From NCBI GenBank assembly GCA_013202615.1, contig JABMRL010000056.1:1-15255 (forward strand): a stretch of 15,255 nt of DNA, in the 5' to 3' direction. The notes beneath the pieces are model-generated. The model saw nothing but the letters and a program-made list of their open reading frames with translations. It ran no database searches and was not told the origin of the DNA. Below, in pieces: positions 1-14,157 of this stretch. A program made the translations under genes and the position numbers. This stretch comes from Dehalococcoidia bacterium (GTDB lineage: Bacteria > Chloroflexota > Dehalococcoidia > Dehalococcoidales > RBG-16-60-22). Positions within the stretch are counted from its first letter, which is position 1; each line of letters opens with the position of its first letter.

Positions 1-1181
1 GTTTGCCTCCATATCTCTTCCAGATTGTGCCTGTGCTCTTCCGGTAACCCTTTTTTATCGGAAGCCAGAGCATCCAATCTGCGGGAAAGTACCACCAGAG
101 CCTGAATTGTTTCATCATGCAGCTCGTGAGAAATGCGTTTCCTCTCTTCTTCCTGAGCTTTTGTTACCTGTTGCAGGTAAAAGCGGAGGTTTTCTTGCAT
201 TTTAGCGAGCTGGTCCACCACCTCCTGCTGCCTCTGGTAGAGACGCGCGTTTTCAACGGCTACACCAATCTGGTTCCCGATAGCTGCTAGCTGTTCAACT
301 TCCTCTTCCTGGAACGTCCTGTGGCTATGCATGGCTATGTCAAGAGTCCCGTTGACCTCGCCTTTTGCGCTTAAGGGGACTGCCAGCAAGGAGTGGACGT
401 TATATTTACTTACCACTTCCCGGGCAAGCCTGGAATCCTGGGATGCATCCTCAGTAAATAGTGGCTTACCTGTCTCAGCTACTATTCCGCTAAACCCCTC
501 CCCTATCTTTAGCCTGTCTATACCACGAGCAAACTCCTCTGAAAAGCCACGGTGAGCGGATAACTCGAGTTCCCTGGTTTCCTCGTTGAGCAGGAATATC
601 CAGGCGGCATCAACCTGCATAATATCTACAACGTTGTCTATCGCCGCATTCAGTACCTGCTCCAGTTCCAGCGATTGAGATATTGTGCTGGAGATCTGGT
701 TCAATGAGACAAGCCTTCGTTCGTTTTCCTTTATGGCCTGAATATGAGTTTTCAGTTCTTGATGGGCTATCTCCAGTTGACTGCGGTATTCTCGCTCTTT
801 ACGAAGTGAAGCGAAACTTATGGCCACCACATTTCCGATAACAAAAACGGCACCCGTTTCAAAGACGGCGTCTGTCTGATTCGCTGAGATAAAAAGCGCG
901 CGGGGCAGCAGGCAAGCCAGGGCAACCAGAGAAGTCGCAAAGGCTCCCCTCCAGCCAAAAAGGAAACCAGCCCAGACAATAGGCGCCATAAAGAGAATTC
1001 TCTCGAAGGCATGTCGCGTCAAGTCCACGTTGGCAATTAGTTGAGAGATTATTCCCGGGTATTCTTGGGATTCGGCATAGTGCAATACCGTTATAAGCAC
1101 GATGATTGTAAGGGTAAACCAAAAGCCGGGCTTTTGAATGATGGTTACAAGTCGACTTATTGATGAAAAGCGTGTTGTCAT
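1..1181 (-). CDS. Sensor histidine kinase (NarX/DegS-type HisKA_3) with GAF domain, C-terminus cut by window edge
   Basis: An open frame of 393 codons starts at the ATG at 1181 and is still open at base 1. Residues about 18-38, 62-97 and 106-124 are hydrophobic and should form the membrane-embedded input region. They are followed by a charged helical linker (about 126-160) and a GAF domain (about 170-315). The DHp helix begins near 343 with EEERKRISHELHDETIQAL, which is the HisKA_3 signature; His355 in ELHD is the expected phospho-acceptor. The ATP-binding HATPase_c domain lies outside the window. The gene starts 25 nt after the response regulator stop, so the two are almost certainly co-transcribed and form one phosphorelay pair. 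No strong ribosome binding site is visible before the start, so it may depend on translation of the regulator. The ligand of the GAF or membrane region cannot be deduced. Confidence 0.9.
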   Translation of the reverse strand, partial: MTTRFSSISRLVTIIQKPGFWFTLTIIVLITVLHYAESQEYPGIISQLIANVDLTRHAFERILFMAPIVWAGFLFGWRGAFATSLVALACLLPRALFISANQTDAVFETGAVFVIGNVVAISFASLRKEREYRSQLEIAHQELKTHIQAIKENERRLVSLNQISSTISQSLELEQVLNAAIDNVVDIMQVDAAWIFLLNEETRELELSAHRGFSEEFARGIDRLKIGEGFSGIVAETGKPLFTEDASQDSRLAREVVSKYNVHSLLAVPLSAKGEVNGTLDIAMHSHRTFQEEEVEQLAAIGNQIGVAVENARLYQRQQEVVDQLAKMQENLRFYLQQVTKAQEEERKRISHELHDETIQALVVLSRRLDALASDKKGLPEEHRHNLEEIWRQ

Positions 1182-1206: not shown

Positions 1207-1875
1207 TCATTCCGGCAGGTCATCAACAGAAACCCAACCCTCTTTTATAGCACGCACCACTGCCTCGGTCCGAGAGCTAACTTGCAGTTTGTTGAAGATA
1301 TGTCCCAGATGTGCCTGTACGGTACGTAAACTCAGGACCAGCTCGTCGGCAATCTCTTGATTACTTAACCCTCTGGCGGCTTTATTCAGCACATCCATCT
1401 CACGATTGCTCAAGACTTTGTCAGGCTTTTTCTTCTCCAACCTGCCCGCCTTTGGGGCAAACCGGTTTAGCACTTTGCGCGCAATGGTCGGGTGCAGCAC
1501 TGACTCCCCGTTATAGACCTGCCTTATCGCCTCAACCAGTTCCTGACCGCGAACGCTTTTCAGCAAATAGCCGGCGGCCCCGGCTTCCAGGAGACTGAAG
1601 ACGAACTGTTCGTCGTCATAAGCACTGAGTATTAGAACTGCTATTCCGGGATAAAGCGTCTTTATTTGTTTTGTGGCTTCAATACCATCAACCCTGGGCA
1701 TTGAAATATCAATAATCGCTACATCCGGCTGCGATGTGCCGGCCAGCTTAATTGCCTCCTCACCGTCACAGGCTTCAGCCACCACAGTTAAATCCGATTC
1801 CTGCTCGAGAATTTGGCGGGTGCCCTCTCGCACTACAGCGTGGTCGTCAGCAATTAAAAGCTTTATTTGTTCCAA
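1207..1875 (-). CDS. NarL/FixJ-family response regulator (receiver + LuxR-type HTH)
   Basis: The 222-residue product has the usual NarL-family length. The receiver domain covers residues 1-120: acidic pair Asp10/Asp11, phospho-acceptor Asp56 in AIIDISMP, Ser84 in LILSAYDD and Lys106 in GYLLKS. The LuxR/GerE DNA-binding domain covers about 153-215, with LSNREMDVLNKAARGLSNQEIA and the recognition region LRTVQAHLGHIFNKL. Translation starts at a TTG (1875-1873) with a GAGG-type ribosome binding site upstream. It is the first gene of a regulator-kinase pair. A good sigma70-like promoter overlapped by a palindrome lies just upstream, which suggests autoregulation or control by another factor. Target genes are not known; NarL-like heptamers elsewhere in the window make it a candidate regulator of the small membrane protein genes. 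That link is inference. Confidence 0.93.
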   Translation of the reverse strand: MEQIKLLIADDHAVVREGTRQILEQESDLTVVAEACDGEEAIKLAGTSQPDVAIIDISMPRVDGIEATKQIKTLYPGIAVLILSAYDDEQFVFSLLEAGAAGYLLKSVRGQELVEAIRQVYNGESVLHPTIARKVLNRFAPKAGRLEKKKPDKVLSNREMDVLNKAARGLSNQEIADELVLSLRTVQAHLGHIFNKLQVSSRTEAVVRAIKEGWVSVDDLPE

Positions 1876-1973: not shown

Positions 1974-2012
1974 ATAGGTAAAAGTGCCTACCCAAGCAGC
2001 CAGAAATAAGTA
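1974..2012 (+). promoter_or_regulatory. Upstream element of small membrane protein gene, shared with two other loci
   Basis: This stretch holds ATAGGTA (1974-1980) and, 25 nt later, ATAAGTA (2006-2012) inside GCAGCCAGAAATAAGTA. The same element occurs upstream of the small membrane protein genes at 7555-7806 and 13344-13514, in the same orientation relative to each gene. Read on the other strand, the heptamers are TACCTAT and TACTTAT, which both fit the E. coli NarL consensus TACYYMT. The element lies about 133 nt before the ATG at 2145, against about 72 nt in the other two loci. It also sits upstream of the divergent response regulator gene. A direct repeat AAATGCTTAC (1942-1951 and 2014-2023) flanks it. 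Confidence 0.45.
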
Positions 2013-2144
2013 CAAATGCTTACTATTTTAAATTCAAAAATTAGGTATCGCGGCGGAAGTCCATTTACTCGAACGGATGTTATTCTGAAAATGAAGATAA
2101 GGAAATGAAGGGGCTTAGCCAATAAATATAAGGAGGAACAAAAA

Positions 2145-2339
2145 ATGGGATGGCAAGTTATTTTGGCACTGGTCCTGATAATCCCGGTGATACTCATTCC
2201 GGTCGCCTTCGTCTGGTATCTGAACATCGGCGGCCTCCACGCTGTCTTGAAAGAGGCCAAGGAAAAACGAGCTGCCAGTGAGATGGAAATAAGAGCGAAG
2301 ACAGTAGAGTCCCATACTGAAGCCGGTGCGCTAGACTGA
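2145..2339 (+). CDS. Small single-pass membrane protein, paralog C (64 aa)
   Basis: I do not recognise a named family. The ATG follows a strong AGGAGG with 8 nt spacing. Residues about 4-24 form one hydrophobic helix with the core IPVILIPVAFVWYLNIGG, and a charged, Lys/Glu-rich tail of about 34 residues follows. The positive tail and nearly uncharged N-terminus suggest the C-terminus is cytoplasmic. Two further genes in the window (7555-7806 and 13344-13514) encode clear relatives with the same tryptophan at position 3, the same IP-x4-P spacing and the same W(Y/F)LN-x-GG boundary. Unlike those, this copy is on the plus strand, convergent with etfD and divergent from the response regulator operon. 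It may be an accessory or assembly subunit of a membrane electron-transfer complex; that is inference from context only. Confidence 0.8.
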   Translation: MGWQVILALVLIIPVILIPVAFVWYLNIGGLHAVLKEAKEKRAASEMEIRAKTVESHTEAGALD

Positions 2340-2383
2340 AAAGCTGCTATATGAGGTAAGGCTGATGCAATGGGAAGTCGCGA

Positions 2384-2407
2384 TGGTTAAATAAACATGA
2401 TTAACCA
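2384..2407. repeat. 7-bp inverted repeat between convergent genes
   Basis: TGGTTAA (2384-2390) and TTAACCA (2401-2407) are exact reverse complements with a 10-nt gap, between the stop of the small gene at 2339 and the stop of etfD at 2467. The stem is AT-rich and no T-run follows on either strand, so it is at best a weak bidirectional terminator. It could also be a protein site. Confidence 0.3.
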
Positions 2408-2466
2408 AATTCACAGAGTTTTCTTAAACAGAAATCAAGTAAGCGTAAAATAACGAAATGGATGAG

Positions 2467-4479
2467 CTACTTTATGGCTTGAGCCGTGATTTCGGCGAGG
2501 TCAAGAATCTGAACTTGTTCCGTGATATTTTTGTCCTTCAGCCCGTCTTCAAACATGGTCATACAGTAGGGACAGCAGACACAAATTGTCTGCGGGTCTT
2601 TTTCCAGCGCCTGTTCAACACGGGCCACATTGATGTGTTTGCCGAGACTTTCTTCCATCCACATCCTGCCACCTCCGGCACCGCAACAAAAAGAACGCTC
2701 CTTGTGTAAATCCATCTCCGCCGGTTCATGCCCGGTGACCGCGGTGAGCACCTGGCGAGGAGCCTCATAAATATTATTGTAACGTCCCAGGTAGCAGGAG
2801 TCATGGAAAGCGAGTTTTCCCAGGTCGGTTATCGGATTTAATTTCAGTCTGCCGTCTTGAATTAACTCGTAGATGAATTCAGTATGGTGGTAGACTTCTA
2901 ATTCAGCGCCATATTGTTTGTAGTCGTTCTTCAAAGTGCTATAACAGTGGGGGCACTGGGTAATAATTTTGGTCACCCCTCTCTCGGCAAATAGTCTTAT
3001 ATTCTCCTGCGCCATACGGTCAAAGACATATTCATTGCCCAGGCGTCGCAGGCTATCCCCACAGCACGACTCATCTTTGCCCAAAATACCCCAGGAAACA
3101 CCGGCTGCATTCAGAATCTTGGTGACAGCCAGGGTTGTGCGCCGACTTCGGGCATCAAAGGCGCCGGCACAGCCGACGTAGTATAAATATTCAGTCGCAT
3201 CAGCCGAGAAAGGTTTCACGTCAATATCGCTCGCCCACTTGGCGCGCTCTGATGGAGCAATGCCCCAGGGGTTGCTTCGCTGCTCCATATTTTCAAACAG
3301 GTTCAGCAGTTCATCGGGGAATCTGGCCTGTAACTGCACCAGATTGCGCCGCAGGTCAATGATGTGGTGTACGTGCTCAACATTTACCGGGCATACCTCC
3401 ATGCAGGCACCGCAGGTGGTACACTCCCAGAGCACCTCTTCGGAAACGCTGCCTTCTCCGTTCTCCGCAATTAACGGCAGTAACGGCTCCTTCTTTTCCA
3501 ACATTAATGGCCCATTGGTCAACAGGTTGGACTTGAGGTCCTGAATCAACGAGCGAGGATTGAGCGGTTTGCCGGTGGCGTAGGCGGGACAGACCTCCTG
3601 GCAGTGACCGGGTTCAACGCAGGCGTAAAGGTCGAGGAGCTGCTTCCGGGTGAAGCCGTCTATGCTTGAGACACCAAAAGTGGCCTCATCCTCCAAGTTG
3701 ATGCGGTGGGGAATACCTCGGGGTGGTGGCGTGGAGAAGAGGTCATTCAAGAGGGCAGCGAGCATATGCAGGTATCTGGTATAGCCAATGATAATCAGCA
3801 CCAGCAGGACAAATCCCCAGTGGCTCCAGAACCAGACATTGTGCCACAGGTCCAGTGAAGCGCTGGAGGTGTAGATATGGCTGAAGGCGGTGCTTATCGG
3901 TGGGGTAAGAATACCCAGGCCGGCTGGAGGGTGCCCCGCGGCAATCTGGGTGGCAATTTTGCCCAGATGAGTTATCGGGTGGATGAGCACAGTGACCAGA
4001 ATCACCATCGCCTCAAAAGTCCGTTGACCTTCAAGGCGCGGTGGCCTGATTATGTAGCGCCGGATAATCCCCCACAGTGCTCCCAGCATGATGAAGGGAG
4101 CGACGATGTCCATAATCCAGGTATAGATGCCGTAGACCGGATTATGCTCCATGACATCCGAGATGCCGAATCCGGAGGCAATAATAATAAAGAAAAAGTA
4201 GTAGACAATAAATAAGAGAAAACCCCAGGCCATGAGCATGTGGCCTATACCGGCACGGTCTTTTCTGGTCAGGTTCTTGAACTGGCACTGCTGGGCAATT
4301 AGATGGCCGATGGCCGTGACTGCCCTTCGGAAAAGCTGGCCGTAGCTTTCCTCTTTTCTGCCCAGAGAGAGATAACGATAGAGCTGATAAAGCCGGTAGC
4401 CGAATACACCTGCGGCAAGCGCAGTCAAGCCCCAGAAAAGGACATACCCGAAAACTCCCAGATGACTCACTGGGTCCAT
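2467..4479 (-). CDS. etfD: EtfD-type membrane Fe-S oxidoreductase (ETF:quinone oxidoreductase; NarI-like + ferredoxin + two CCG domains)
   Basis: The 670-residue protein has an N-terminal NarI-like membrane part with helices near 10-32, 82-103, 122-140, 155-175 and 212-235. His residues around 80, 167, 171, 213 and 220 are candidate heme b ligands. A two-cluster ferredoxin region follows (287-363), with CTTCGACMEVCP at 353-364. Two HdrB-like CCG domains follow: Cys437, Cys472-473, CPHC 509-512; then Cys562, Cys598-599, CPYC 636-639. This order defines the EtfD/FadF/EMO proteins, which pass electrons from reduced ETF to menaquinone. The gene is last in an etfB-etfA-etfD operon, 27 nt after etfA. 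One oddity is that the first ferredoxin motif reads C287-VEPGH-C293-QEV-C297, with Pro290 where the usual second cysteine stands. The codon is CCC, so this is not a frameshift. Confidence 0.9.
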   Translation of the reverse strand: MDPVSHLGVFGYVLFWGLTALAAGVFGYRLYQLYRYLSLGRKEESYGQLFRRAVTAIGHLIAQQCQFKNLTRKDRAGIGHMLMAWGFLLFIVYYFFFIIIASGFGISDVMEHNPVYGIYTWIMDIVAPFIMLGALWGIIRRYIIRPPRLEGQRTFEAMVILVTVLIHPITHLGKIATQIAAGHPPAGLGILTPPISTAFSHIYTSSASLDLWHNVWFWSHWGFVLLVLIIIGYTRYLHMLAALLNDLFSTPPPRGIPHRINLEDEATFGVSSIDGFTRKQLLDLYACVEPGHCQEVCPAYATGKPLNPRSLIQDLKSNLLTNGPLMLEKKEPLLPLIAENGEGSVSEEVLWECTTCGACMEVCPVNVEHVHHIIDLRRNLVQLQARFPDELLNLFENMEQRSNPWGIAPSERAKWASDIDVKPFSADATEYLYYVGCAGAFDARSRRTTLAVTKILNAAGVSWGILGKDESCCGDSLRRLGNEYVFDRMAQENIRLFAERGVTKIITQCPHCYSTLKNDYKQYGAELEVYHHTEFIYELIQDGRLKLNPITDLGKLAFHDSCYLGRYNNIYEAPRQVLTAVTGHEPAEMDLHKERSFCCGAGGGRMWMEESLGKHINVARVEQALEKDPQTICVCCPYCMTMFEDGLKDKNITEQVQILDLAEITAQAIK

Positions 4480-4506
4480 ATCAACTTCTTTGTCCTTTCC
4501 ATCCGG

Positions 4507-5856
4507 TCAATGCCTCTCCACCATGAAATCCACGCCTTTAGCACGAAGCTCCCTGACCCTTTTCGTCAAGGCAGGGACAATTTTGAGCACATCACCGACA
4601 ATCCCGTAGGTGGATACTTCAAAGATAGGCGCATTCTTGTCAGAATTTATGGCCACGATGACATCGGAGTCCTGCATGCCGACCAAATGCTGAATTGCGC
4701 CGCTAATGCCGCAGGCGATGTAGAGCTTGGGTCGGACCGTTTTCCCGGTCTGGCCGACCTGCCGTTCCGCCGGCATCCAGCCCGCCTCTACGGCACCGCG
4801 AGAGGAACCAACAACGCCGTCCAGTTCATCAGCCAGCTCCTGAAGCAGGCTAAAGTTTTCTTTCGCGCGCATGCCGCGACCGCCTGATACTATGATATCC
4901 GCCGACGCGACATCTACCTCACCGGCCTTGCGCTCATCTATCGCCTCAAGTACCTTGACGGCTATGTCAGCTTCTTCAAGCGGTACAATCTCGGATACAA
5001 TTTCCCCCTTACGTGAAGTGTCTTTAGCCGGCAGGGGCATGACATGCGGGCGAACCGTAGCCATCTGCGGCCGGGTACGCTCGGTCAGGATGGTAGCCAT
5101 GATATTGCCGCCGAAGGCGGGGCGGGTCTGCAGCAGATAACCCCGTTCATCGATTGATAAACCGGTGCAGTCAGCGGTGAGGCCGGTCTGGATTTCGGTA
5201 GCTACCGCCCCGGCCAGGTCCCTTCCCAGTCCGGTTGCACCCATCAGTATAATTTCCGGCCGGTATTTTCTGACCAGATAGCATATGGCTTTGTAGTACG
5301 GCTCGGTGCGGTAGTAATGGAATAAAGGGGCGTCGATAATATAAGCTTTACTTGCGCCATAGGCAAATGATTCAAGGCAAAGGTGCTCCACCCTGTCACC
5401 GATAACCACGGAACACAATTCCTCGCCGCGTTCCCTGGCCAAATCAGCACCGACGCCCAGCAACTCCCAGGAAACCCCGGCCGGTTCGCCTGCCGTCTGC
5501 TCCACAAATACCCAGACTCCCCGGTATTCCCTGAGTTTGGCAAGTAATGCTGCTTCCTCTTCGGTTACCTCAGGAGCTTCTTCTGCGGCAGGGGCCTTTT
5601 TCCGTGCCGCCAGTTCGGCAATGATTTTCTGCTCTTCCGGGGTTAAGTAAATTTCCAGGGCATCGGTGGGGCAGACTTTGAGGCATTTACGACAGCCGAT
5701 ACATTTAGCAACGATGATTGTCGGCTCACCCTGCTCATTCATTTCGATGGCATCTTTGGGGCAGGAGCTCTGGCAGCGGGCACCGCAGGCGATACATTTA
5801 CCGGGAATGAGTCGGGCTATGCCGCGTGGTCTTTTCGTTTTCTTCCTGTCTTCCAT
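4507..5856 (-). CDS. etfA: Electron transfer flavoprotein alpha subunit with N-terminal 2[4Fe-4S] ferredoxin domain
   Basis: At 449 residues this is about 100 longer than a classical EtfA because of an N-terminal ferredoxin module. Its second motif, C52-IG-C55-RK-C58-LKV-C62-P, is standard. Its first, C21-IA-C24-GAR-C28-QSS-C32-P, has one extra residue between the second and third cysteines. A linker rich in Ala and Glu (about 75-108) joins it to the EtfA core. The C-terminal FAD domain shows SGGRGM (about 328) and the ETF-alpha signature LYIACGISGAIQHLVGMQDS near 390. The ATG follows AAAGG, 11 nt after the etfB stop. The protein pairs with EtfB and should deliver electrons to EtfD at the membrane. 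The ferredoxin arm may add an electron exit or entry; nothing in the sequence proves flavin-based bifurcation. Confidence 0.93.
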   Translation of the reverse strand: MEDRKKTKRPRGIARLIPGKCIACGARCQSSCPKDAIEMNEQGEPTIIVAKCIGCRKCLKVCPTDALEIYLTPEEQKIIAELAARKKAPAAEEAPEVTEEEAALLAKLREYRGVWVFVEQTAGEPAGVSWELLGVGADLARERGEELCSVVIGDRVEHLCLESFAYGASKAYIIDAPLFHYYRTEPYYKAICYLVRKYRPEIILMGATGLGRDLAGAVATEIQTGLTADCTGLSIDERGYLLQTRPAFGGNIMATILTERTRPQMATVRPHVMPLPAKDTSRKGEIVSEIVPLEEADIAVKVLEAIDERKAGEVDVASADIIVSGGRGMRAKENFSLLQELADELDGVVGSSRGAVEAGWMPAERQVGQTGKTVRPKLYIACGISGAIQHLVGMQDSDVIVAINSDKNAPIFEVSTYGIVGDVLKIVPALTKRVRELRAKGVDFMVERH

Positions 5857-5867
5857 GTGCCTTTCTA

Positions 5868-6692
5868 TTATCTGTTCGAATTAAAATAGAGCACGTCTTT
5901 TTCGATGAGATTTCCCAGCAGCAGGTTGGCGGCGTCTTCAGGTTCGTTTAATCCGTCACCCAGAATTTCGCCCTTTACTCTTTCCGGAGAAAAGATTCGG
6001 CGCACCTGCGTTGCCGAACCTCTGAGGCCGACCATACTCTCATCCAGCTTCATTTCCTTGTTATCCCATAACGATACCGGGGCTTTCTCGGCCATTAATC
6101 GCCTGGGCACCGTTGGGTAGCGCAGCCGGTTGATTTCCCGCACCACCGCAATCAACGCCGGCAGCGGTGCCTCGACTATTTCCCGCCAGCCGCCCACTTT
6201 GCGTCTTACTCTGACTTTTTTCGATACAACGTCGACATCTTCAATACGGTCAACCAGCGTTAGCTGCGAGAAGCCGAGGCGGGTAGCGATGCCCGGTCCA
6301 ACCTGTGCCGTATCACCGTCAATAGTCTGCCGACCGCAAATCACCGCCGCCAGTTCGTTTTTCTGATGCAGCTGCTTGATTGCCTCAGCCAGCACGAAAC
6401 TCGTTGCCAGAGTATCAGCGCCGCCGAAGGCGCGGTCACTTAAAAGTATGGCCTCGTCAACTCCTAAAGCTAAAGACTTACGCAGCGTAATCTCGGTATT
6501 CGGGGGGCCCATCGAGACAACCGCCACCCGAAATCCATACCTGTCCTTAAGACGAAGACTCTCCTCCAGAGCGTGGACATCAAAAGGATTCATAATAAAA
6601 GGCACCCCTTCTCGCTTCAGAGTGCCCGTTACTGGATCAATTTCAACCTGAGTGGTATCGGGTACCTGTTTAATACAGGCGACGACTAACAA
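5868..6692 (-). CDS. etfB: Electron transfer flavoprotein beta subunit
   Basis: The 274-residue product has normal EtfB/FixA length. It starts with the family hallmark CIKQVPDT (residues 6-13) and continues with NPFDVHALEESLRLKD, VVSMGPP and the AMP/nucleotide-binding region GGADTLATSFVLAEAI. It forms the ETF heterodimer with EtfA. I chose the TTG at 6692-6690 because GAGGTG lies 6 nt before it and the frame gives the expected N-terminus; a nearby ATG at 6696 is in another frame. It is the first gene of etfB-etfA-etfD, with a promoter-like sequence at 6728-6757. No acyl-CoA dehydrogenase, the usual electron donor, is inside the window. Confidence 0.95.
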   Translation of the reverse strand: MLVVACIKQVPDTTQVEIDPVTGTLKREGVPFIMNPFDVHALEESLRLKDRYGFRVAVVSMGPPNTEITLRKSLALGVDEAILLSDRAFGGADTLATSFVLAEAIKQLHQKNELAAVICGRQTIDGDTAQVGPGIATRLGFSQLTLVDRIEDVDVVSKKVRVRRKVGGWREIVEAPLPALIAVVREINRLRYPTVPRRLMAEKAPVSLWDNKEMKLDESMVGLRGSATQVRRIFSPERVKGEILGDGLNEPEDAANLLLGNLIEKDVLYFNSNR

Positions 6693-6727
6693 ACATCACA
6701 CCTCTACTTGTATCTTCTTATCGATTT

Positions 6728-6757
6728 AATATATCTGACTGGGCATGTTTTTGCAAA
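6728..6757 (-). promoter_or_regulatory. Probable promoter of etfB-etfA-etfD
   Basis: On the minus strand TTTGCA (6757-6752) and TATATT (6733-6728) are 18 nt apart. The -10 matches five of six consensus bases and the -35 four of six. The predicted transcription start, near 6721, leaves a leader of about 30 nt before the TTG start at 6692. Confidence 0.4.
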
Positions 6758-6861
6758 CCGCATTAATAACTAATTCACGCCGGGGGTTCATAGGTTTTTA
6801 TGCTTATTACGCGCGGCATACGACTTGCGCACCAGTTAAATTATTTATATCTTGATAACAT

Positions 6862-6956
6862 TAGTAGGAGACTGATTTACAGTATTGTCACTCTGTGTGA
6901 ATACTGCACTGGCCATAATCTCGATTGGTCAACTAGATATTTTTGGTGTCCTACTA
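6862..6956. repeat. Nested inverted repeats between usp and etfB
   Basis: The outer arms TAGTAGGAGAC (6862-6872) and GTGTCCTACTA (6946-6956) pair over 11 bp with one mismatch, and the right arm ends inside the usp stop codon. Inside lies a 27-nt palindrome (6880-6906): CAGTATT, then CAC and GTG around a TCT centre, then AATACTG. On the minus strand no T-run follows, so it is not a simple intrinsic terminator. It could be an operator upstream of the etf operon, a structured 3' end of the usp mRNA, or the relic of a small inverted-repeat element. Confidence 0.45.
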
Positions 6957-7421
6957 GGTTCTCACCATCAATACGGGTACCTTGCCTCCTCGCAGTACTT
7001 TATCGGTAACACTACCGAAAGCCCAACGACCAATACCTGCCCGTCCGTGTGTTGACATAGCCACCAGGTCGGCATTGTACTCTTCTTCAGCTTTAATAAT
7101 CTCGTCAGCAGGACTATGCCCTATGCCCACCTTAAATAACACGGTAGCCCCTTTGTTTCTGAGGTTTTCTCCAACCTCCTCAAGATATTTCATGGCATCG
7201 ACTTTCATTTGCTCCAGCTCGCTTTCGCTGTATGGTACTGTAATAGTACCCGCTCCACCTCCACTGATATGAACATCATGTCTCAGCGTTGTAATGACAT
7301 GGAAAAGAGTAACTTCCGCCTGTTCCCCTGGTGCCAGTCTAGATAACATTTCCTCAATATAGTGCAGGGCAGCCTCACCTAATTTAGAGCCATCCAATGG
7401 AACCAGTATTTTCTCAGACAT
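6954..7421 (-). CDS. Universal stress protein (UspA family)
   Basis: The 155-residue protein is one complete Usp domain. It begins KILVPLDGSKLGEAAL and ends with the nucleotide-binding loop STHGRAGIGRWAFGSV followed by VPVLMVRT. The loop follows the ATP-binding Usp pattern G-x9-GS, with Ser replacing the first glycine of the G-x2-G part, so ATP binding is likely but not proven. The ATG at 7421 follows AAAGGAGG with good spacing. A consensus sigma70 promoter (7453-7480) lies directly upstream, so the gene has its own transcription start even though it sits downstream of the small membrane protein gene at 7555-7806. Such proteins usually respond to starvation, redox or energy stress. Confidence 0.93.
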   Translation of the reverse strand: MSEKILVPLDGSKLGEAALHYIEEMLSRLAPGEQAEVTLFHVITTLRHDVHISGGGAGTITVPYSESELEQMKVDAMKYLEEVGENLRNKGATVLFKVGIGHSPADEIIKAEEEYNADLVAMSTHGRAGIGRWAFGSVTDKVLRGGKVPVLMVRT

Positions 7422-7452
7422 CTTTTACCTCCTTTCCTTACAGTATTTTTAA

Positions 7453-7480
7453 ATTATAGTCCTGGTTTCGTGTTTGTCAA
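7453..7480 (-). promoter_or_regulatory. Consensus sigma70 promoter of the usp gene
   Basis: On the minus strand TTGACA (7480-7475) and TATAAT (7458-7453) are both perfect consensus hexamers, separated by 16 nt. The predicted transcription start is near 7446, about 25 nt before the usp ATG, with the ribosome binding site in between. This is the strongest promoter in the window by sequence. Confidence 0.75.
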
Positions 7481-7554
7481 TTCCTTTTTCTAACCCCCTG
7501 AGACTTAACCTGGGCATCGTGGGGAGCACCCCGGAGCGGAATACGATTGGGACG

Positions 7555-7806
7555 TCAGCTTCTTTTCATCTGGTCAACGAGCTCGCCTACATTGTCCATG
7601 TAATACTGCTTGATTTCCTCCCCCTGTCTCTCCCAGGCGATGGTACCTTTACGTTCAAAGTTAAAAAGCCATTTGGCGGCCGCACTTCTTTTACGCCTTT
7701 CAAGTATTGCGACAATACCACCAAAGTTAAGGTACCATATATATGCAACCGGGATGAGCATAATGGGTATTGCTAATACTATAGCCACTACAATTGGCCA
7801 TTCCAT
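7555..7806 (-). CDS. Small single-pass membrane protein, paralog B (83 aa)
   Basis: This is a relative of the proteins at 2145-2339 and 13344-13514. The start is the ATG at 7806, with AGGAGG 8 nt upstream. An in-frame GTG at 7815 overlaps that ribosome binding site and is unlikely. The product begins MEWPIVV and has one hydrophobic helix (about 4-24) with AIPIMLIPVAYIWYLNFGG. Paralog B differs by a longer C-terminal tail of about 48 residues, rich in Lys, Arg, Glu and aromatic residues, ending DNVGELVDQMKRS. That tail is probably cytoplasmic and partly helical. The leader (7816-7907) is nearly identical to that of paralog A. The gene lies 133 nt before usp and about 400 nt after the formate dehydrogenase operon. 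Function unknown; I assign no family name. Confidence 0.8.
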   Translation of the reverse strand: MEWPIVVAIVLAIPIMLIPVAYIWYLNFGGIVAILERRKRSAAAKWLFNFERKGTIAWERQGEEIKQYYMDNVGELVDQMKRS

Positions 7807-7815
7807 CTTAGTCAC

Positions 7816-7907
7816 CTCCTTTTCTTATTTCCATTAGTAGCTTACTACCTTCTTGTTTAAGCTTACATCCGTTTTAATACTTATTTCGGACTGCCTTAAA
7901 TACCTAA
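7816..7907 (-). promoter_or_regulatory. Conserved leader/upstream region of paralog B
   Basis: Read on the minus strand this region is nearly identical to 13520-13616 upstream of paralog A. Shared parts, in gene order: TTAGGTATTTAA, GCAGTCCGAAATAAGTATTA, CGGATGT, a stem-forming AAGCTTA...TAAGCTA pair (7837-7865) around a 13-nt loop ending AGGTAG, and TGGAAATAAGAAAAGGAGG, which includes the ribosome binding site. TTAGGTA (7907-7901) and ATAAGTA (7884-7878) lie 16 nt apart, exactly as in paralog A. No consensus -10/-35 pair is obvious, which fits an activator-dependent promoter. Confidence 0.6.
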
Positions 7908-8215
7908 TACATGTCCCTTTTCATGTAGTTATCTGCTTACCCCACTTCAGATAAATTGGGTATATATTCTGATAAGAGAAGCAAATCTAATCTTAGCGTG
8001 CGGAATCTAGTTACGGCCATTGGCGTGGAAAGCTCGCCTTTATGATTAAGGTGATATATCGTCGCTTGTGAAATAAGGTAATAAACGAGCTATTGTTATC
8101 TCGGGCATAGTGTATAACTGTACCAGTATTCGGGACAGGTTAATCCCGGTGATTTCTCTATCTTTTTGGGTTACCTGCGCCCGTAGAGCTAAGACATCTG
8201 CGGCATACCCCTTTT
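7908..8215. other. Intergenic stretch without a gene
   Basis: I see no credible coding frame here. It holds two short hairpins: GGCG (8022-8025) with CGCC (8035-8038), and CGGGA (8131-8135) with TCCCG (8144-8148). The second lies about 70 nt beyond the stop of the HybB-like gene and may mark the end of the formate dehydrogenase transcript, although no T-run follows it on the minus strand. Confidence 0.5.
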
Positions 8216-9382
8216 TTAACTGCTTCCCTCGATTGCTTCTCCGTGGCTGACTATCGGCAGCAACCGGTGAGCCAGCAAGATAACGAGCAAAGCGTCGGCA
8301 ACGAGCCCTACCGAGATGGCAAGCTCCATCCAGTGAGGGAAGTAAATCGTGCCCGGCCGCATGCCTAGAGCCAGCATGCTCACATTAAAGCGGTTAAGCA
8401 CCAGCCCGATGATAACCAGCACTGAGCTCCAAAACACGGCGTTACGGTTTTGCCGCACACCGGGCATGGAGAAGAGGATGATTGGTAAAATGACCCCAAC
8501 AATAATCTCCCCCCACCACAGCATGTTCTGCGGATATGCCAGAAAGATGAGCCCTATTTCTCCAACTGCCATCAAGTCTATCACTTTTAATAGCAGGTAA
8601 AGACCCAGGATGTAGGGAATCGCTCTGGCCAGCCCGCTGAGCACATCCAGGTCTAATTTGTGGCCGAAAGCTCTGGTGCTGAGAGTCGACTCGAAAATAA
8701 CCATTGCCGGGCCTACGGCTACAGCCGAAATGAGGAAGAGAATTGGCAATATCGGTGTGTACCACAAGGCATGCAGTGTTTCCGGCATCATCAGCAACAT
8801 AGATCCCAGGGAAGACTGATGTAACGTTGAGAGAACAACGCCGGCGATTACCAGGGGAATCTGAATTGCCCGGATGATGCGTATGGGGACATGCCAGTTG
8901 AAGCGCCTGATGACTGGGAAATTGCTCTTGCTTAAGCCTTCAAAGACCGCAGGGCTGAACTCTAGAGCCAGCACGGTGGTATATGCCATCACGCATACTG
9001 CCACCTCGAACAGAGGGGAATGGATGTTCCAGTAGATTATAGCGTGCCAGATGTACCAGGGTTGTCCCAGGTCTACCAACAGGGCGAGAATCACCAGCGT
9101 GTAGCCCAGAAAGGCAGTCAGAATCGCTGGCCTTACCACGGGGTGGTATTTTTTCAGGTTAAAGATGTAGACTGCACCCGCCAATGTGAACCCGCCAGCT
9201 GCCAGGGCAACGCCGCAGTACAGGTCGAAGCTGATCCACAGTCCCCAGGCACGGCCGTCGCTCAGGTTGCTTATCGCTCCCAGCCCATTAAGGTAGCGAA
9301 CAATCACCGTCACCAGGCCAAGGATAACCAGAACACTTAAGATGGAGGTGCCGACAGGGAATGAACGTTTCTTTTGTATCAT
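8216..9382 (-). CDS. HybB/NrfD-family integral membrane subunit (quinone-reactive)
   Basis: The 388-residue protein is almost entirely hydrophobic, with about ten membrane helices. The second helical region, WGLWISFDLYCGVALAAGGF (about 46-65), is typical of HybB-like members of the NrfD/PsrC family, and the length matches HybB (about 390) better than NrfD (about 318). Family members carry no heme. They take electrons from a ferredoxin-like partner to the quinone pool, or in some complexes couple this to ion movement. The ATG overlaps the fdhB stop as ATGA, with GAGGTG upstream, so the gene is translationally coupled. Its place as third gene shows that this formate dehydrogenase uses a HybB-type anchor instead of the cytochrome b subunit (FdnI) of E. 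coli Fdh-N. Dehalococcoides carries a comparable pairing in its organohalide respiration complex (OmeA/OmeB). Confidence 0.88.
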   Translation of the reverse strand: MIQKKRSFPVGTSILSVLVILGLVTVIVRYLNGLGAISNLSDGRAWGLWISFDLYCGVALAAGGFTLAGAVYIFNLKKYHPVVRPAILTAFLGYTLVILALLVDLGQPWYIWHAIIYWNIHSPLFEVAVCVMAYTTVLALEFSPAVFEGLSKSNFPVIRRFNWHVPIRIIRAIQIPLVIAGVVLSTLHQSSLGSMLLMMPETLHALWYTPILPILFLISAVAVGPAMVIFESTLSTRAFGHKLDLDVLSGLARAIPYILGLYLLLKVIDLMAVGEIGLIFLAYPQNMLWWGEIIVGVILPIILFSMPGVRQNRNAVFWSSVLVIIGLVLNRFNVSMLALGMRPGTIYFPHWMELAISVGLVADALLVILLAHRLLPIVSHGEAIEGSS

Positions 9383-10185
9383 TTCGTCACCTCTTTTCTC
9401 TCTTCCTTATCGGCTCTTTCCTGGCTCATTCTGTCACGCCGCTTGATGACCCAATAAGCGCCAGCCATAACTGCCGCCGCGCCGAATAGTACCGGCGGAA
9501 CGGCTCCCATGGCGCGTTCAGCATCAACAGTCACCGGCTCAGAACCGAGGGTTGGTAACCCCAGTTTCTCAAAGGGGACAGGGGAGAGATATAGCCAGGA
9601 TGTACCGCCTACCTCCTTCTCTCCATAGATATGATTTACATATTTGTCTGACGAGGCCGTAATACGCTCCCTGGCCTCGATGATGAGTTCCTCCCTATCA
9701 CCGAACTTGAGGGCACCGGTGGGACATGTCGTGACACAGGCTGGCTCCAGACCTCCACCCTGCCGGTCCGCGCAAAAGGTGCACTTGCGGATCCAGGGCA
9801 GTGGCTTGTCCCACTCAAAATTCGGTATGCCAAACGGGCAGGCTACCATGCAGTAGCGGCAGCCGAAGCATTTGTTGTCGTCATAAACTACCGGTCCGTC
9901 TGGTGTCTTCTGTAAAGCGCCTACCGGGCAGGCTGTCACGCAGGCCGGGTGTTCGCAGTGCATGCACTGGAGCTTGGTAAAGACAAAGTGGAACTTGCCA
10001 TCGTCATCATCTACTTCATTAAAACGTATCTTGGTAAAGGTGTAAGCAGACAATTGCGGTGGGTTCTCATAGGTTCCCCTATTGATAGTCGCCTCTGTGG
10101 GCAGTTCGTTCCATTGCTTGCAGGCTACCTGACAGGCTCGGCATCCTATGCATTTAGTAGCGTCGTACAGTACTGCTTTACTCAT
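9379..10185 (-). CDS. fdhB: Formate dehydrogenase Fe-S subunit, four-cluster ferredoxin with C-terminal membrane anchor
   Basis: The 268-residue protein carries sixteen cysteines in four ferredoxin motifs: C12/15/18/22, C74/77/82/86, C106/109/112/116 and C135/138/150/154. It is the electron wire between the FdhA active site and the membrane subunit. Residues about 226-248 (VPPVLFGAAAVMAGAYWVI) form a single membrane helix, followed by a charged tail, as in FdnH/HybA-type subunits. It has no signal peptide of its own, so it would be exported with the Tat-targeted FdhA. I chose the ATG at 10185 because AAGGAG lies 6 nt before it and it overlaps the fdhA stop as ATGA. An in-frame ATG at 10206 lies upstream of that ribosome binding site and would add seven residues, two of them cysteines. 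Confidence 0.92.
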   Translation of the reverse strand: MSKAVLYDATKCIGCRACQVACKQWNELPTEATINRGTYENPPQLSAYTFTKIRFNEVDDDDGKFHFVFTKLQCMHCEHPACVTACPVGALQKTPDGPVVYDDNKCFGCRYCMVACPFGIPNFEWDKPLPWIRKCTFCADRQGGGLEPACVTTCPTGALKFGDREELIIEARERITASSDKYVNHIYGEKEVGGTSWLYLSPVPFEKLGLPTLGSEPVTVDAERAMGAVPPVLFGAAAVMAGAYWVIKRRDRMSQERADKEERKEVTK

Positions 10186-13100
10186 CTTGCACTCCTTACA
10201 TTGCACAGGAAAGTCTTGTATTCCGGGATGGTTGTATTGGCATCGCCAACGTGGGGCGTAAGAATGTTACCGCTGTCACCTTTAGCCATGCCGCTGTAAC
10301 CCCAGTGGTTAAGGATACCAATATGGTGAATGTCCTTCCCGCCCACCTTCAGCGGCTGGAACCGGCGGGTGACCACAGCTACCGCTTTAATCTCTCCACG
10401 CGCGTTACTCACGATAACGCTATCGCCACTTTTGATGCCCTTTTCGGCAGCCAGTTCCTCATCCATTTCTACGTACATCTCCGGCATAAGCTCCACCAGC
10501 CAGGGAAGACTTCTGGTCATGATACCAGTCTGCCAGTGCTCAGTGCAGCGGTAGGTAGTGCCTACATAGGGGTACCGGTCGGATGAGCTGTGTTCATTCC
10601 TATATTTTCCGATAAAGGCACAGGGGTTATTCCGGGTGCCTGACATCAGGTTTTTGTCTAATGGACTCTCCCAGGGCTCATAAACCTCAGGTACTGGTCC
10701 ATCGGCACGGTCGTAGCCCCAGAGACGCGCTACACCTTCCGGCTTCATAATAAAGGGCAGGTATTTCTCTCCCTCCTTGGCTTGACTTATCGGCGGCCAG
10801 CCGCCGTCGGGAACATCACCCTGCCATTTTGTCACAGGATTATAGTTCAGAATAACCGGGTGTTCCTTATCCCAGGGCACTCCATCCAGGTCAACCGATG
10901 CCCGATTGTAGATAATGCGTCGATTCAGCGGCCAGCACCAGGTCCAGTCGGAGTACAGCCCGATTTGGTTGGGGTGTGAATCTACCGTGTTTCGCCTCTT
11001 GGCTTTATTACCGTCTGCCTCGGTGAACATGTTGCAGTAGAGCCAGTTTCCAGAACTGGTGGTGCCATCGTCCTTGAGGTTGCCAAAACTTTCCGCCAGT
11101 TTGCCGATGGTCAGGTCGTAGCCATTAATCTCTCTGGCGACGGCATCGGCAGTGATATGCACTCCATAATTCCAATCAAGGCTGGTAATAGCCTCGGCCT
11201 GGGGCGCAGAGCTGTCCGCCTGATAGAGTTCCTTCAGCTTAAGCATAATGAGGTTCATGATTTCCAGGTCAGGCAAGCTCTCTCCTGGTGGCTCTACTGC
11301 TTTGTAGCGCCACTGTACCCATCGGCCACTATTGCTGATGCTCCCTTCCTTCTCATAGGAACAAGCCGCCGGGAGGACAAACACCTCGGTCTTGATGTCA
11401 GGCGAATTGACCCCGGGCCTCTGCCAGAATTCCGAGGTTTCGTTCATCCAGATGTCGGCGACGACGAGCCAGTCCAGATTTCCCAGCGCCTCGCGCTCCC
11501 CGTTGGAATTGGGGCCGCCTGATGCCGGGTTTTGCCCCCAAACCCAGAGTCCCCTGATTTTATCCTCGCCCATTGCCTCGAACATCCCGATGTGGGTATA
11601 GTTTACGCTGGGGTCGCACTTGGGTAGGTAATTAAAGCAAAAGTCATTACCCCCGGTGGCAGCATCGCCATACCATGCCTTAAGCAGGCTCACCACATAT
11701 TTTTTGTAATTGCTCCACCAGTTAGCGCTTTTATCTCCGGTCAAGCCCTGAGGCGTGATGGTTGAAGGGCAGGCTCGCTTAAGGTAAGTTTCAAGGTCAG
11801 TGTCGACTTCTTGGGGCACGGCCAGGTAACCGGGCAGGATATGGCTTAGCAGGCACATGTCAGTGGACCCTTGAACGTTGGAGGTGCCTCGCAGTGCGTT
11901 TATGCCACCGCCGGCAACTCCCATGTTGCCTAGCAGGAGCTGGAGTATGGCGTAGGACCTGACATTCTGGGTGCCATAGGTATGCTGGGTAGTGCCCATG
12001 GCATACATAATGGTTCCGGCCTTACCTTTCTGCCCCGTGGCACAGAAGGTGCGGCAAACATCCATGTATATATCCTTCGGCGTGCCGGTGATATTGCATA
12101 CCGTGTCCACGTCATAGCGAGAGTAGTGCTTTTTGAGCAGCTGGAATACGGAATCGGGGTCTTTTAAAGCAGGGTCCGTAGCAGGGGTTTCGGTATCGGC
12201 ATATTTCCACGTCTTCTTAGCCGCTGCGGTATACTTACCGTCACTCACTTCACCAAATAACCCGTCTTCAAAGGTAAATCCAGCGTTAACCACAAAAGCG
12301 GCATTAGTGTACTGCTTGATGTATTCCATGTTGTAATTTTCGGGATTTTGCTCCATGTCGTTGAGTATGTAGTTTATCATTCCGCCGATAAAGGCTATGT
12401 CCGTCCCCGACCTTAGCGGCGCATATATATCAGCCTTAGAGGAGGTGCGGGTGAAGCGCGGGTCAACATGGATAAGCCTGGCTCCCCTCTCCATAGCCCT
12501 GGTAACCCACTTGAAAGATAGGGGGTGATTTTCGGCGGCGTTGGAGCCAATAATCATGATGCAGTCGGCGTTTCTGATGTCAATCCAATGGTTGGTCATA
12601 GCGCCTCTGCCGAAACTTTCCGCCAGACCGGCGACAGTGGCGGAGTGTCATATACGGGCGCAGTGCTCTAAATACACCACGCCGAGAGCACGGTTCATCT
12701 TGGACAGCAGATAACACTCTTCATTATCCAGCTCGCCACCACCGAGACTGGCGATAGCATCAGTCCGGCTGGCTCTACCAGTCCAATATTTATCACGGGT
12801 GGCCTTAACTCTCCTGGCGATTGTCTCTATCATCCAGCCCCATGATTTCTCTTCCCATTCGGTTGCGTTTGGAGCCCGATACAGGGGCTTGGTAAGCCGG
12901 TACTGGTTAGGCTTGCCATTTACCTGGTGTATCTGAGACATAGCCAGTCCCTTGCTGCACAGCGCGCCCTCATTGATGGGGTGGTCGGGGTCTCCCTCTA
13001 TTTTGATGATTCCATCCCCGTAGGCAGCTACAATGGCTCCGCAGCCAACACCGCAGTAACAGCAGATAGTAGTCGTCTCCTTGACCTTTGTTTTTAGCGG

Positions 13101-13211
13101 AAACTCTCTGGGGGCAGCCATCACGGTTCCGTCAGGGAGAAAAGCGAAGGCTACGGCGGCACTGAGACCTGTTCCCGATAGCTTTAAGAAGTCTCTACGG
13201 TTTAGTTCCAC
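10182..13211 (-). CDS. fdhA: Selenocysteine-containing formate dehydrogenase catalytic subunit (Fdh-N type, Tat-exported)
   Basis: The frame reads through one in-frame TGA (12650-12648), giving 1009 residues, close to E. coli FdnG. The TGA is flanked by EHCARI-U188-HSATVAGL, then GRGAMTNHW and GSNAAENHP, the exact context of the selenocysteine-His pair in formate dehydrogenases. Residues 4-22 (NRRDFLKLSGTGLSAAVAF) are a twin-arginine signal. The [4Fe-4S] motif is C50-C51-Y-C53-GVG-C57, with a fourth ligand in EGALCSKG. A molybdopterin-guanine-dinucleotide-binding domain closes the protein. It should oxidise formate on the outer face of the membrane. The start is the GTG at 13211 with AGGAGG 9 nt upstream; an earlier in-frame GTG at 13232 lies before that ribosome binding site. 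It is the first gene of fdhA-fdhB-hybB-like. Selenocysteine machinery is not in the window. Confidence 0.93.
12609..12650 (-). promoter_or_regulatory. Bacterial SECIS element with its UGA codon in fdhA
   Basis: On the minus strand the TGA (12650-12648) is followed, after 18 nt, by the loop GGTCT (12629-12625). A CGCC/GGCG stem closes the loop. Outer pairs ACT/AGT and GCC/GGC extend the stem, with small internal loops between. The loop sequence and its 18-nt distance from the UGA are the same as in the E. coli fdhF SECIS recognised by SelB, as I recall it. Confidence 0.8.
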
Positions 13212-13248
13212 AAAGCGTCTCCTCCTTTGCACGCATATTTTACTGCAT

Positions 13249-13297
13249 AAAAAAGGGGGGGCAACTAAGAGATTTCGTTCTCTACTGTCAACCCCCC
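13249..13297 (-). terminator. Intrinsic terminator/attenuator-like hairpin between paralog A and fdhA
   Basis: On the minus strand GGGGGG (13297-13292) can pair with the C-run at 13261-13255. An inner AGAGA/TCTCT stem has loop ACGAAA, and T6 follows immediately (13254-13249). This is the form of a rho-independent terminator for the 56-codon gene upstream. It ends only about 38 nt before the fdhA start, so fdhA must be expressed by read-through or from a promoter overlapping the hairpin. A perfect TTGACA (13290-13285) lies inside it, but no good -10 sits 17 nt downstream; TAAAAT further on has poor spacing. Confidence 0.65.
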
Positions 13298-13343
13298 TCT
13301 TCTTTCACCGGTTGGTATGTTTTCATCTGTCCGCAGCAATATA

Positions 13344-13514
13344 CTACTTAACCTCTAATGCTACCTTCGCTCCCTTCGCATGAGCAACTCGCCTTGCCCG
13401 GGCTTCCTTGACGGAGGCATAGAGACCACCGATGTTCAGGAACCAAACGAACGCGACCGGGAAAAGGATGACGGGTATTGCAATCACCAGTGCTACTATG
13501 ATTTGCCATTCCAT
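13344..13514 (-). CDS. Small single-pass membrane protein, paralog A (56 aa)
   Basis: The ATG at 13514 follows AGGAGG with 9 nt spacing and opens a 56-codon frame ending in TAG. The product begins MEWQIIVALV and continues IPVILFPVAFVWFLNIGG, one membrane helix (about 4-24). A short basic tail with KEARARR follows, consistent with a cytoplasmic C-terminus. It is the shortest of three paralogs in the window and closest to paralog C (2145-2339). It lies 132 nt upstream of fdhA in the same direction, with a terminator-like hairpin between, so it is probably made in excess over the formate dehydrogenase. Its position suggests an accessory role in assembling or anchoring that complex; this is inference. 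I do not recognise a named family. Confidence 0.8.
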   Translation of the reverse strand: MEWQIIVALVIAIPVILFPVAFVWFLNIGGLYASVKEARARRVAHAKGAKVALEVK

Positions 13515-13519
13515 CTCAT

Positions 13520-13616
13520 TAATCCTCCTTTTCTTATTTCCATTATTAGCTTACTACCTCATTGTATAAGCTAACATCCGCCGTAATACTTATTTCCGAC
13601 TGCTTTAAATACCTAA
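13520..13616 (-). promoter_or_regulatory. Conserved leader/upstream region of paralog A
   Basis: This region matches 7816-7907 nearly base for base on the minus strand. It includes TTAGGTA (13616-13610), ATAAGTA (13593-13587) inside GCAGTCGGAAATAAGTA, GCGGATGTTAGC, and a perfect 8-bp stem TTAGCTTA/TAAGCTAA (13546-13553 with 13567-13574). The 13-nt loop ends AGGTAG. TGGAAATAAGAAAAGGAGG then runs into the ribosome binding site. Conservation outside the coding part shows that the regulation, not only the protein, was duplicated or is selected. Confidence 0.6.
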
Positions 13617-13941: not shown

Positions 13942-14157
13942 ATGTCATTATTATTGAACAGAAAGCGCTACTACAGAACTGCGGAAGCTTGCAAGAGAGC
14001 AGGTATAAGCCGTAGTACCTTTTTCCGATGGTTGAGGAAAGGGTTATTTCAGGACGTGGAAACTTTTGATAGGAGAGGGTGGAGGCTGTTTACAGAGAAG
14101 GATTTGCGCAGGTTGAAAAAAGAGGCTAACCGGATAAGCCTTAATTCAAGTGGATGA
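13942..14157 (+). CDS. Small MerR/excisionase-like HTH DNA-binding protein
   Basis: The 71-residue protein consists of a single winged-helix domain. RTAEACKRAGISRSTFFRWL (12-31) is the helix-turn-helix, and GWRLFTEKDLRRLKKEA (46-62) matches the wing and following helix of MerR-type DNA-binding domains. The C-terminal dimerisation or sensing domain of full MerR proteins is missing, so this resembles the stand-alone HTH_17 or excisionase-like group. No integrase or mobile element is nearby, which argues for a regulator. The array of GTACKAAT repeats before its promoter is a candidate binding site for itself. The ribosome binding site is weak. The gene lies divergent from the fdh locus and 60 nt before the CHASE2 gene in the same direction. 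Confidence 0.75.
   Translation: MSLLLNRKRYYRTAEACKRAGISRSTFFRWLRKGLFQDVETFDRRGWRLFTEKDLRRLKKEANRISLNSSG

Follow-up and report, generated by a model that had tools for sequence, protein, structure and literature searches.

A candidate NarL-type regulon joins three one-helix membrane protein genes and two electron-transfer operons in a Dehalococcoidia bacterium

Proteins consisting of little more than one membrane helix are known as subunits of redox enzymes, CydX being an example, and as regulators of sensor kinases, of which MgrB and SafA are representative. A regulator of the second kind is made under control of a response regulator, binds the membrane part of the kinase, and tunes it, and MgrB of PhoPQ provides the precedent (PMC8534201). 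We describe here three small genes, S1, S2, and S3, in a 15,255-nucleotide stretch of DNA (the window; positions 1 to 15,255 of contig JABMRL010000056.1, assembly GCA_013202615.1) from a Dehalococcoidia bacterium, each encoding a one-helix membrane protein of the same unnamed family. An initial annotation had recognized all three, with coordinates and lengths that are borne out by calling of open reading frames (ORFs), and had read them as accessory subunits or assembly factors of membrane redox complexes. The observation was right and the interpretation partly so, but it missed a NarL-type two-component system beside S1 and the operator-like element that accompanies it, which together are the most specific association of these genes. 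The transcription units headed by S1, S2, and S3 probably constitute one regulon of this adjacent system, and the element, together with the candidate regulon that unifies the three genes, is the most useful result of the analysis.

The regions upstream of S2 and S3 have 93 base pairs (bp) of DNA in common, at 89% identity, a feature absent from the initial annotation that turned out to be central. Alignment of the upstream regions of 23 small genes, two of which (from locus L059; G and L numbers are our handles for genomes and loci) are near-duplicates of window promoters and several others close relatives, suggests a common architecture. Palindrome-like TARG...CYTA sites lie furthest upstream (14 of the 23 rows), followed by an element resembling AAATARGTAT-N5-CGGAAG (recognizable by eye in 21 rows, in varying form) and then by a TGATA-like box ahead of the ribosome binding site; the aligned promoters of L042 and L043 show no such element. 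The heptamer TAGGTAT or its complement is present in 16 of 21 upstream regions, and the commonest heptamer in 30 randomizations reached at most 8. TACCTAT also fits the NarL heptamer, TACYYMT.

Searched for in the window's genome (a 1.34-megabase draft, 77% complete), the pattern TARGYAT-N5-CGGAWG matches at exactly three places, one before each of S1, S2, and S3, and the reversed control at none. Because the pattern was drawn by eye from the 23-row alignment, which includes the window promoters, these three matches are partly by construction; the lack of any other match in the genome is not, and neither are 12 matches before family genes outside the alignment. The latter were found in 36 chosen genomes with 38 matches in total, 21 of them, including the 12, within about 215 bp upstream of family genes; the other 17 comprise one before a membrane protein of PAS type, one before two unrelated ORFs in G129 (see below), and 15 elsewhere. 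The reversed control gave 13 matches in the same 36 genomes (places not listed). Within the window, the exact matches are the three already named, and five are found if two mismatches are allowed, a number that 12 of 200 shuffles also reach. From the position of the element and the family of the regulator we infer that the regulator binds it.

The response regulator gene lies 270 bp from S1 as its divergent neighbor, and this arrangement recurs. Of the 139 genomes of the order, 20 have an orthologue of the regulator (E<=1e-85, at least 65% identity), and in 15 of these a family gene is placed divergently at a distance of 162–343 bp. In G129 the divergent place is occupied by two unrelated tandem one-helix ORFs, accompanied by the element, and in G014, G018, G021, and G100 no one-helix ORF is present in up to 1500 divergent bases. 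Taken from the side of the small genes, 21 of 79 non-redundant small-gene clusters (any cluster sharing its 30-residue C-terminus with one already counted was dropped) have a regulator orthologue (at least 300 bits) as their immediate neighbor on the divergent side, compared with 4 of 357 control genes that have any divergent regulator-family neighbor, the controls lying more than 4 kilobases (kb) from any small gene. Fisher tests for the comparison of genomes within the order give p values of 1.2e-10 and 3.9e-10, in which phylogeny is ignored.

The commonest neighbors within four genes of the small genes in the first 63 loci, some of which overlap on one contig, are sensor kinases or PAS-type membrane proteins related to them (30 loci), with NarL-type regulators in 29 and relatives of FdhB and HybB in 10 loci each. 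Two kinases that were scanned have HisKA_3 and PAS or GAF domains, with a weak MASE1 match below the cut-off, and the L034 regulator has Response_reg and GerE domains. The PAS-type membrane protein, defined here as a BLAST relative of the L036 protein, follows 9 of the 79 clusters (L036 12529-13278, L044 4899-5618, L054 11866-12696, and others) and has a membrane part (HDxHRLLFLxPI...LPRAxFIS) that resembles that of the kinase; one of five scanned passes the PAS cut-off, one falls just below, and three have no match. In G047 the gene for the PAS-type protein has its own copy of the operator-like element.

To judge by their sequences, S1, S2, and S3 are paralogues within a large family of one-helix membrane proteins. 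The likeness resides in a 30-residue N-terminal part, with tails that diverge, and the alignment over the helix has 17 invariant columns (M1, W3, A8, V10, I13, P14, L17, P19, V20, A21, W24, L26, N27, G29, G30, A33, and A44). Among 48 family members M1, P14, P19, W24, and G30 are invariant, and W3, A8, L17, A21, and N27 are kept at 90% or more. The signature reported at the outset for S1–S3, Trp3, two prolines, a Trp, and Asn-Gly-Gly ahead of diverging tails, is confirmed. The strong ribosome binding sites are likewise found on direct reading, as an AAGGAGG Shine-Dalgarno sequence in all three, although for S2 the ORF tool sets the start at a GTG three codons before that of the 83-residue product. 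With S3 as query in its own genome, the S1, S2, and S3 loci are the sole matches at E<=1 (from 1.1e-31 for S3 itself to 4.7e-12), and because only these three places match, the likeness is beyond chance. Just after S1 (2365-2394, + strand) a short frame, MQWEVAMVK-stop, opens with MQWE as family members do and could be what remains of another small gene in tandem; the related locus L059 has an additional small ORF (3212-3439) at the equivalent position.

A search with one protein sequence yielded 762 protein clusters (E<=0.001), and a profile, at the permissive threshold of E<=10, found 4387 proteins; among the matches listed (120 per search) those with names are hypothetical proteins, save for one stray name in the one-sequence search. 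The protein-level constraint in relatives on which the initial annotation had staked its proposal is present, the ratio of nonsynonymous to synonymous substitution rates (dN/dS) being below 1 in 11 of 11 chosen pairs (0.09 to 0.75), as under purifying selection, with the highest value coming from the S1/L059 pair on few changes. Its statement that no named family has the signature holds for Pfam-A and NCBIfam, in which no model exceeds its curated cut-off with S1, S2, or S3 (the three window proteins alone for NCBIfam). The 48 members gave only weak and scattered Pfam matches (best E 0.0024; 19 families with any match at E<=1), and a PDB sequence search gave one match, at E 4.1, which is not meaningful. 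No paper was found whose title or opening lines of the abstract describe the family; one figure legend in PMC5736913 gives unlabelled genes as nonconserved hypothetical proteins.

Patterns made from S1–S3 and run against 84,980 species genomes returned 39 loci, 38 with Chloroflexota-type record titles. The other (L037) is titled Deltaproteobacteria, which is probably a misnomer because the identical place recurs as G069, classed in the window's order. Matches in the genome searches are confined to the window's class, Dehalococcoidia by record titles. The order has the family in 27 of its 139 genomes, and in samples drawn from the class and the phylum it was found in 31 of 394 and 2 of 301 genomes, respectively, the last two belonging to the window's order; a genome has up to nine matches. 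Most of the genomes compared are incomplete bins, and absences are therefore soft.

The helix is strongly hydrophobic in the 48 members, and the distribution of charge (−2 to 0 in the first four residues, +1 to +6 in residues 28–47, where it is positive in all 48) predicts a topology with the N-terminus out and the basic tail in. In G136 an open frame of 244 residues, situated 99 bp before fdhB, combines an FMN_bind domain (E 4e-11) with the helix, which forms its C-terminal end. FMN_bind-type domains are known from extracytosolic electron transfer (PMC8238504), and the fusion thus agrees with the predicted orientation and ties the helix to electron transfer. At L068 (177-713) and L120 (3289-3636) the small helix is in one frame with cysteine-rich C-terminal stretches. 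Tandem family copies occur in 35 of the 79 clusters, and the top profile matches include proteins of 129–160 residues with two units in a row; nine of the 13 two-unit proteins that were read (P0121-P0131, P0145, and P0164) have an extra hydrophobic stretch between the units. These two-unit proteins suggest that tandem copies act together.

The link to redox operons is partly supported and is not exclusive to one enzyme. Of the placements first reported, S3 before fdhA and S2 before usp-etf stand, but the description of S1 as lying after etfD does not, as S1 is on the opposite strand and convergent with etfD. Adjacency to redox genes, proposed originally as a check, is enriched: Fdh/HybB, Hdr, Etf, or Nuo genes follow 26 of the 79 clusters (Fdh/HybB 12, Hdr 11, Etf 3, Nuo 2) compared with 22 of 407 control genes, an enrichment that is inflated because the Hdr, Nuo, PAS, and kinase labels were seeded from loci near small genes. 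For 72 clusters more than 1 kb of downstream sequence is present, and 23 of these have redox genes. Purine-salvage (L049), amine-oxidase-like (L046), and Hsp20 (L047) genes are also found behind some copies.

Fourteen genomes of the order contain an intact HybB of the clade found in the window (at least 64% identity), and 13 of them also contain a family gene, with weak cases in G096 (a weak match on another contig) and in G130 and G136 (short matches near hybB). More distant HybB (38–42% identity) is present in 15 genomes of the order that have no close one, 11 of them in a family labelled f9, presumably Dehalococcoidaceae, and is accompanied by a small gene in one (G099, on another contig). 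In the other direction, an intact HybB of the clade is missing from 14 of the 27 genomes of the order that carry small genes, although many of the genomes are incomplete, and two of the 14 (G120 and G042) keep fragments. At the loci of G120, G042, and G027, the last of which is not among the 139, only fragments of hybB are present and no fdhAB is labelled (fdhAB elsewhere in these genomes was not searched), and the small genes remain. The HybB fragment follows small-gene codons out of frame in G120, a frame opening exactly like a small gene (MEWQIIVALV) runs on as the HybB C-terminus in G027, and HybB fragments follow the small gene in G042; the regulator and its small gene persist in G120 and G027. 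An fdh alongside thus seems not to be needed, and a fixed Fdh/HybB subunit that occurs only with its enzyme is not what is found. We also note that the HybB remnants at L033 (8643-9334), L101 (8649-8947), and L012 (1707-2418), in genomes of two families (G120 and G042), begin at a near-identical HybB residue (178–180), as if one breakpoint had been used twice.

We propose, as the conserved DNA suggests, that TARGYAT-N5-CGGAWG and a TAGGTAT-type site upstream of it would place three transcription units (S1 alone, S2-usp-etfBAD, and S3-fdhAB-hybB) under the sensor kinase and the NarL-type regulator. S1, S2, and S3 would be first-in-operon products (a lone one for S1), each inserting as one helix with two conserved prolines in the orientation described above. 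It is less certain that they would act by packing of helices, often in pairs of different copies, and that each would serve electron-transfer modules in general, as a membrane adaptor or assembly partner produced along with them, and not be a fixed subunit of a single enzyme. We favor the adaptor role, with low confidence, on the strength of the enriched redox genes, the fusion to FMN_bind, the existence of tandem and two-unit forms, and the fact that no single enzyme goes with the family. Taken whole, with regulon and adaptors combined, the proposal is tentative and falls somewhat short of an even chance. In a broader version, which is possible if on the unlikely side, a cassette of promoter and membrane peptide would have been copied before unrelated energy operons (Fdh, Hdr, Etf, and Nuo) in Dehalococcoidia under one two-component system, the peptide being a shared adaptor that docks exchangeable modules or reports their state to the kinase.

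Several observations weigh against the adaptor regulon. The exact pattern is present in only 9 of the 23 aligned promoters, and a relaxed form precedes only 24 of the 79 clusters. Redox genes stand behind only 8 of the 21 regulator-linked clusters, and 32 of the 79 clusters have neither redox nor sensor or regulator genes nearby. No close regulator orthologue is found in 11 of the 27 small-bearing genomes of the order, and in one of the 11 (G007) the element nonetheless precedes two small genes. The tail lacks amphipathic character (mean hydrophobic moment 0.17 for residues 31–48, compared with 0.28 when shuffled). The FMN_bind fusion is a single case with an internal Met at the start position of the small protein, possibly a separate start, and four of the 13 two-unit proteins have no linker helix visible by eye, so that their units would not be in the same orientation.

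The main rival, and the best account of the divergent position, is that S1–S3 are kinase regulators similar to MgrB or SafA, which would be regulator-controlled, bind the membrane part of the kinase, and tune it, with the copies in other operons linking those operons to the kinase. The retention of the divergent position in 15 of 20 cases, the shared element, the one-helix architecture, and the lone regulator-linked copies where no HybB was found (G011, G023, and G029) all speak for it, with MgrB as a precedent. We nonetheless consider it rather unlikely. A feedback peptide would not usually be present at up to nine matches per genome or in strings of two or three tandem copies, many of the copies ahead of hdr, etf, and fdh have no kinase gene next to them, and four of the 20 regulator orthologues have no one-helix ORF in the divergent place.

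The reading of the initial annotation, in which each small protein is an accessory subunit or assembly factor of the specific membrane redox complex encoded behind it, is unlikely as a general account. In its favor, redox genes follow the clusters more often than they follow control genes, and the FMN_bind fusion precedes fdhB; moreover, the gap to hybB in G012 is just 3–6 bp, and four of the five best non-self matches of S3 are fdh-linked (G008, G053, G047, and G006). Against it are the small-bearing genomes with no intact clade HybB, the small genes kept beside hybB remnants, the solitary S1, and the purine-salvage, amine-oxidase-like, and Hsp20 genes behind other copies. Third, and a shade less probable again, is that S1–S3 are membrane proteins of the envelope or of energy stress that act independently of the enzymes encoded behind them, the downstream genes just sharing the promoter. 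The 32 clusters with no redox or sensor neighbors, the usp and Hsp20 genes behind some copies, and the survival of small genes where hybB is a remnant would all be accommodated; the redox operon enrichment and the FMN_bind fusion speak against it.

That S1–S3 are leader ORFs whose translation rather than product matters would suit their first-cistron position and a hairpin common to six aligned leaders of relatives, but is very improbable in view of the dN/dS values, the residues invariant in 48 members, the fusions to other domains, and the lone copies with no gene behind. The hairpin (L037, L038, L053, L057, L061, and L101) is an inverted repeat, GGAGGTAAG...CTTACCTCC, with a CTTCGG-like core upstream of the first small gene; in principle, the real ribosome binding site is another possible partner for its 3' arm. 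Both-side changes are seen in 1 of 11 predicted pairs among the six sequences, and with covariation this weak we make no claim of a riboswitch. Rfam has no match in the window; in seven related loci its matches at gathering scores are limited to tRNAs and one L10 leader.

Table 1. Coordinates of the small genes, their upstream elements, and neighboring genes in the window
Feature	Coordinates	Strand	Basis or remark
S1, small one-helix membrane protein, 64 residues	2145..2339	+	lone; divergent from response regulator gene
S2, small one-helix membrane protein, 83 residues	7555..7806	-	first gene, ahead of usp-etfB-etfA-etfD
S3, small one-helix membrane protein, 56 residues	13344..13514	-	first gene, ahead of fdhA-fdhB-hybB
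Operator-like element TAGGTATCGCGGCGGAAG upstream of S1	2042..2059	+	pattern search
Operator-like element TAAGTATTAAAACGGATG upstream of S2	7866..7883	-	pattern search
Operator-like element TAAGTATTACGGCGGATG upstream of S3	13575..13592	-	pattern search
Two palindrome-like sites upstream of S1, TAGGTAAAAGTGCCTA and TAAGTACAAATGCTTA	1975-1990 and 2008-2023	+	sequence reading
93-bp promoter/leader region of S2	7815..7907	-	second TAGGTAT half-site 7900-7906
93-bp promoter/leader region of S3	13524..13616	-	second TAGGTAT half-site 13609-13615
Sensor histidine kinase, N-terminal membrane part, GAF, and HisKA_3	3..1181	-	3' end cut by contig end
NarL/LuxR-type response regulator, divergent from S1	1207..1875	-	Pfam domains from the L034 orthologue, not the window copy
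EtfD-like (CCG plus 4Fe-4S, membrane) protein	2467..4479	-	Pfam, NCBIfam
EtfA with ferredoxin domains	4507..5856	-	Pfam
EtfB	5868..6692	-	Pfam
Universal stress protein (usp)	6954..7421	-	Pfam
HybB/NrfD-type membrane subunit	8216..9382	-	Pfam, NCBIfam
FdhB/HybA-like iron-sulfur subunit	9379..10206	-	Pfam, NCBIfam
Formate dehydrogenase alpha subunit (fdhA)	10182..13232	-	NCBIfam; in-frame TGA 12648-12650 taken as selenocysteine codon

The window also contains a short ORF (13942-14157, + strand) that by eye is helix-turn-helix-like, lying between S3 and a large gene that starts at about 14218 and is cut by the contig end.

The family is large and unnamed, and its significance depends on which explanation is correct. 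If the regulon is true, the formate and flavoprotein electron-transfer operons of Dehalococcoidia, and in relatives those of heterodisulfide reductase, would be under one sensor, with a testable DNA element for finding more members. Proteins acting as shared adaptors would reveal how electron-transfer modules of widely dissimilar kinds are attached to a single membrane, and proteins acting as kinase tuners would represent a multi-copy version of the MgrB idea.

Comparison with known systems gives partial likenesses in each case. The regulator is of the NarL/LuxR type, with Response_reg and GerE domains in the L034 orthologue, although the half-sites here, arranged GTA...TAC, are the reverse of the NarL 7-2-7 palindrome. 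As with CydX and other single-helix redox subunits, part of the family loci are co-operonic with electron-transfer enzymes, but the family is not confined to one enzyme and is present in genomes where the enzyme was not found. One member is fused to the C-terminus of a domain of the FMN_bind/RnfG type (PF04205), but this is one case and the usual member has no other domain. PspB likewise begins with a short helix that contains Pro and Trp and leads into a charged tail; its model (PF06667) matches no small gene in eight genomes at E<=10 and is not among the families matched by the 48 members at E<=1. TatA and TatB have an amphipathic helix after the membrane helix, a feature that the tails here do not share, and no Tat match was seen among the 48 members at E<=1. 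The resemblance to MgrB and SafA lies in the one short hydrophobic helix (computed from hydropathy and charge for the family) and in a gene apparently under a response regulator. MgrB has a conserved Trp in or near the membrane (Trp20), as does the family, and two conserved cysteines, whereas the family has no Cys among the common residues of positions 1–40 (PMC8534201 for MgrB). The family further differs from MgrB and SafA in having several paralogues per genome, often in tandem and before redox operons. The divergent position and the shared element suggest that the response regulator may drive transcription of the small genes.

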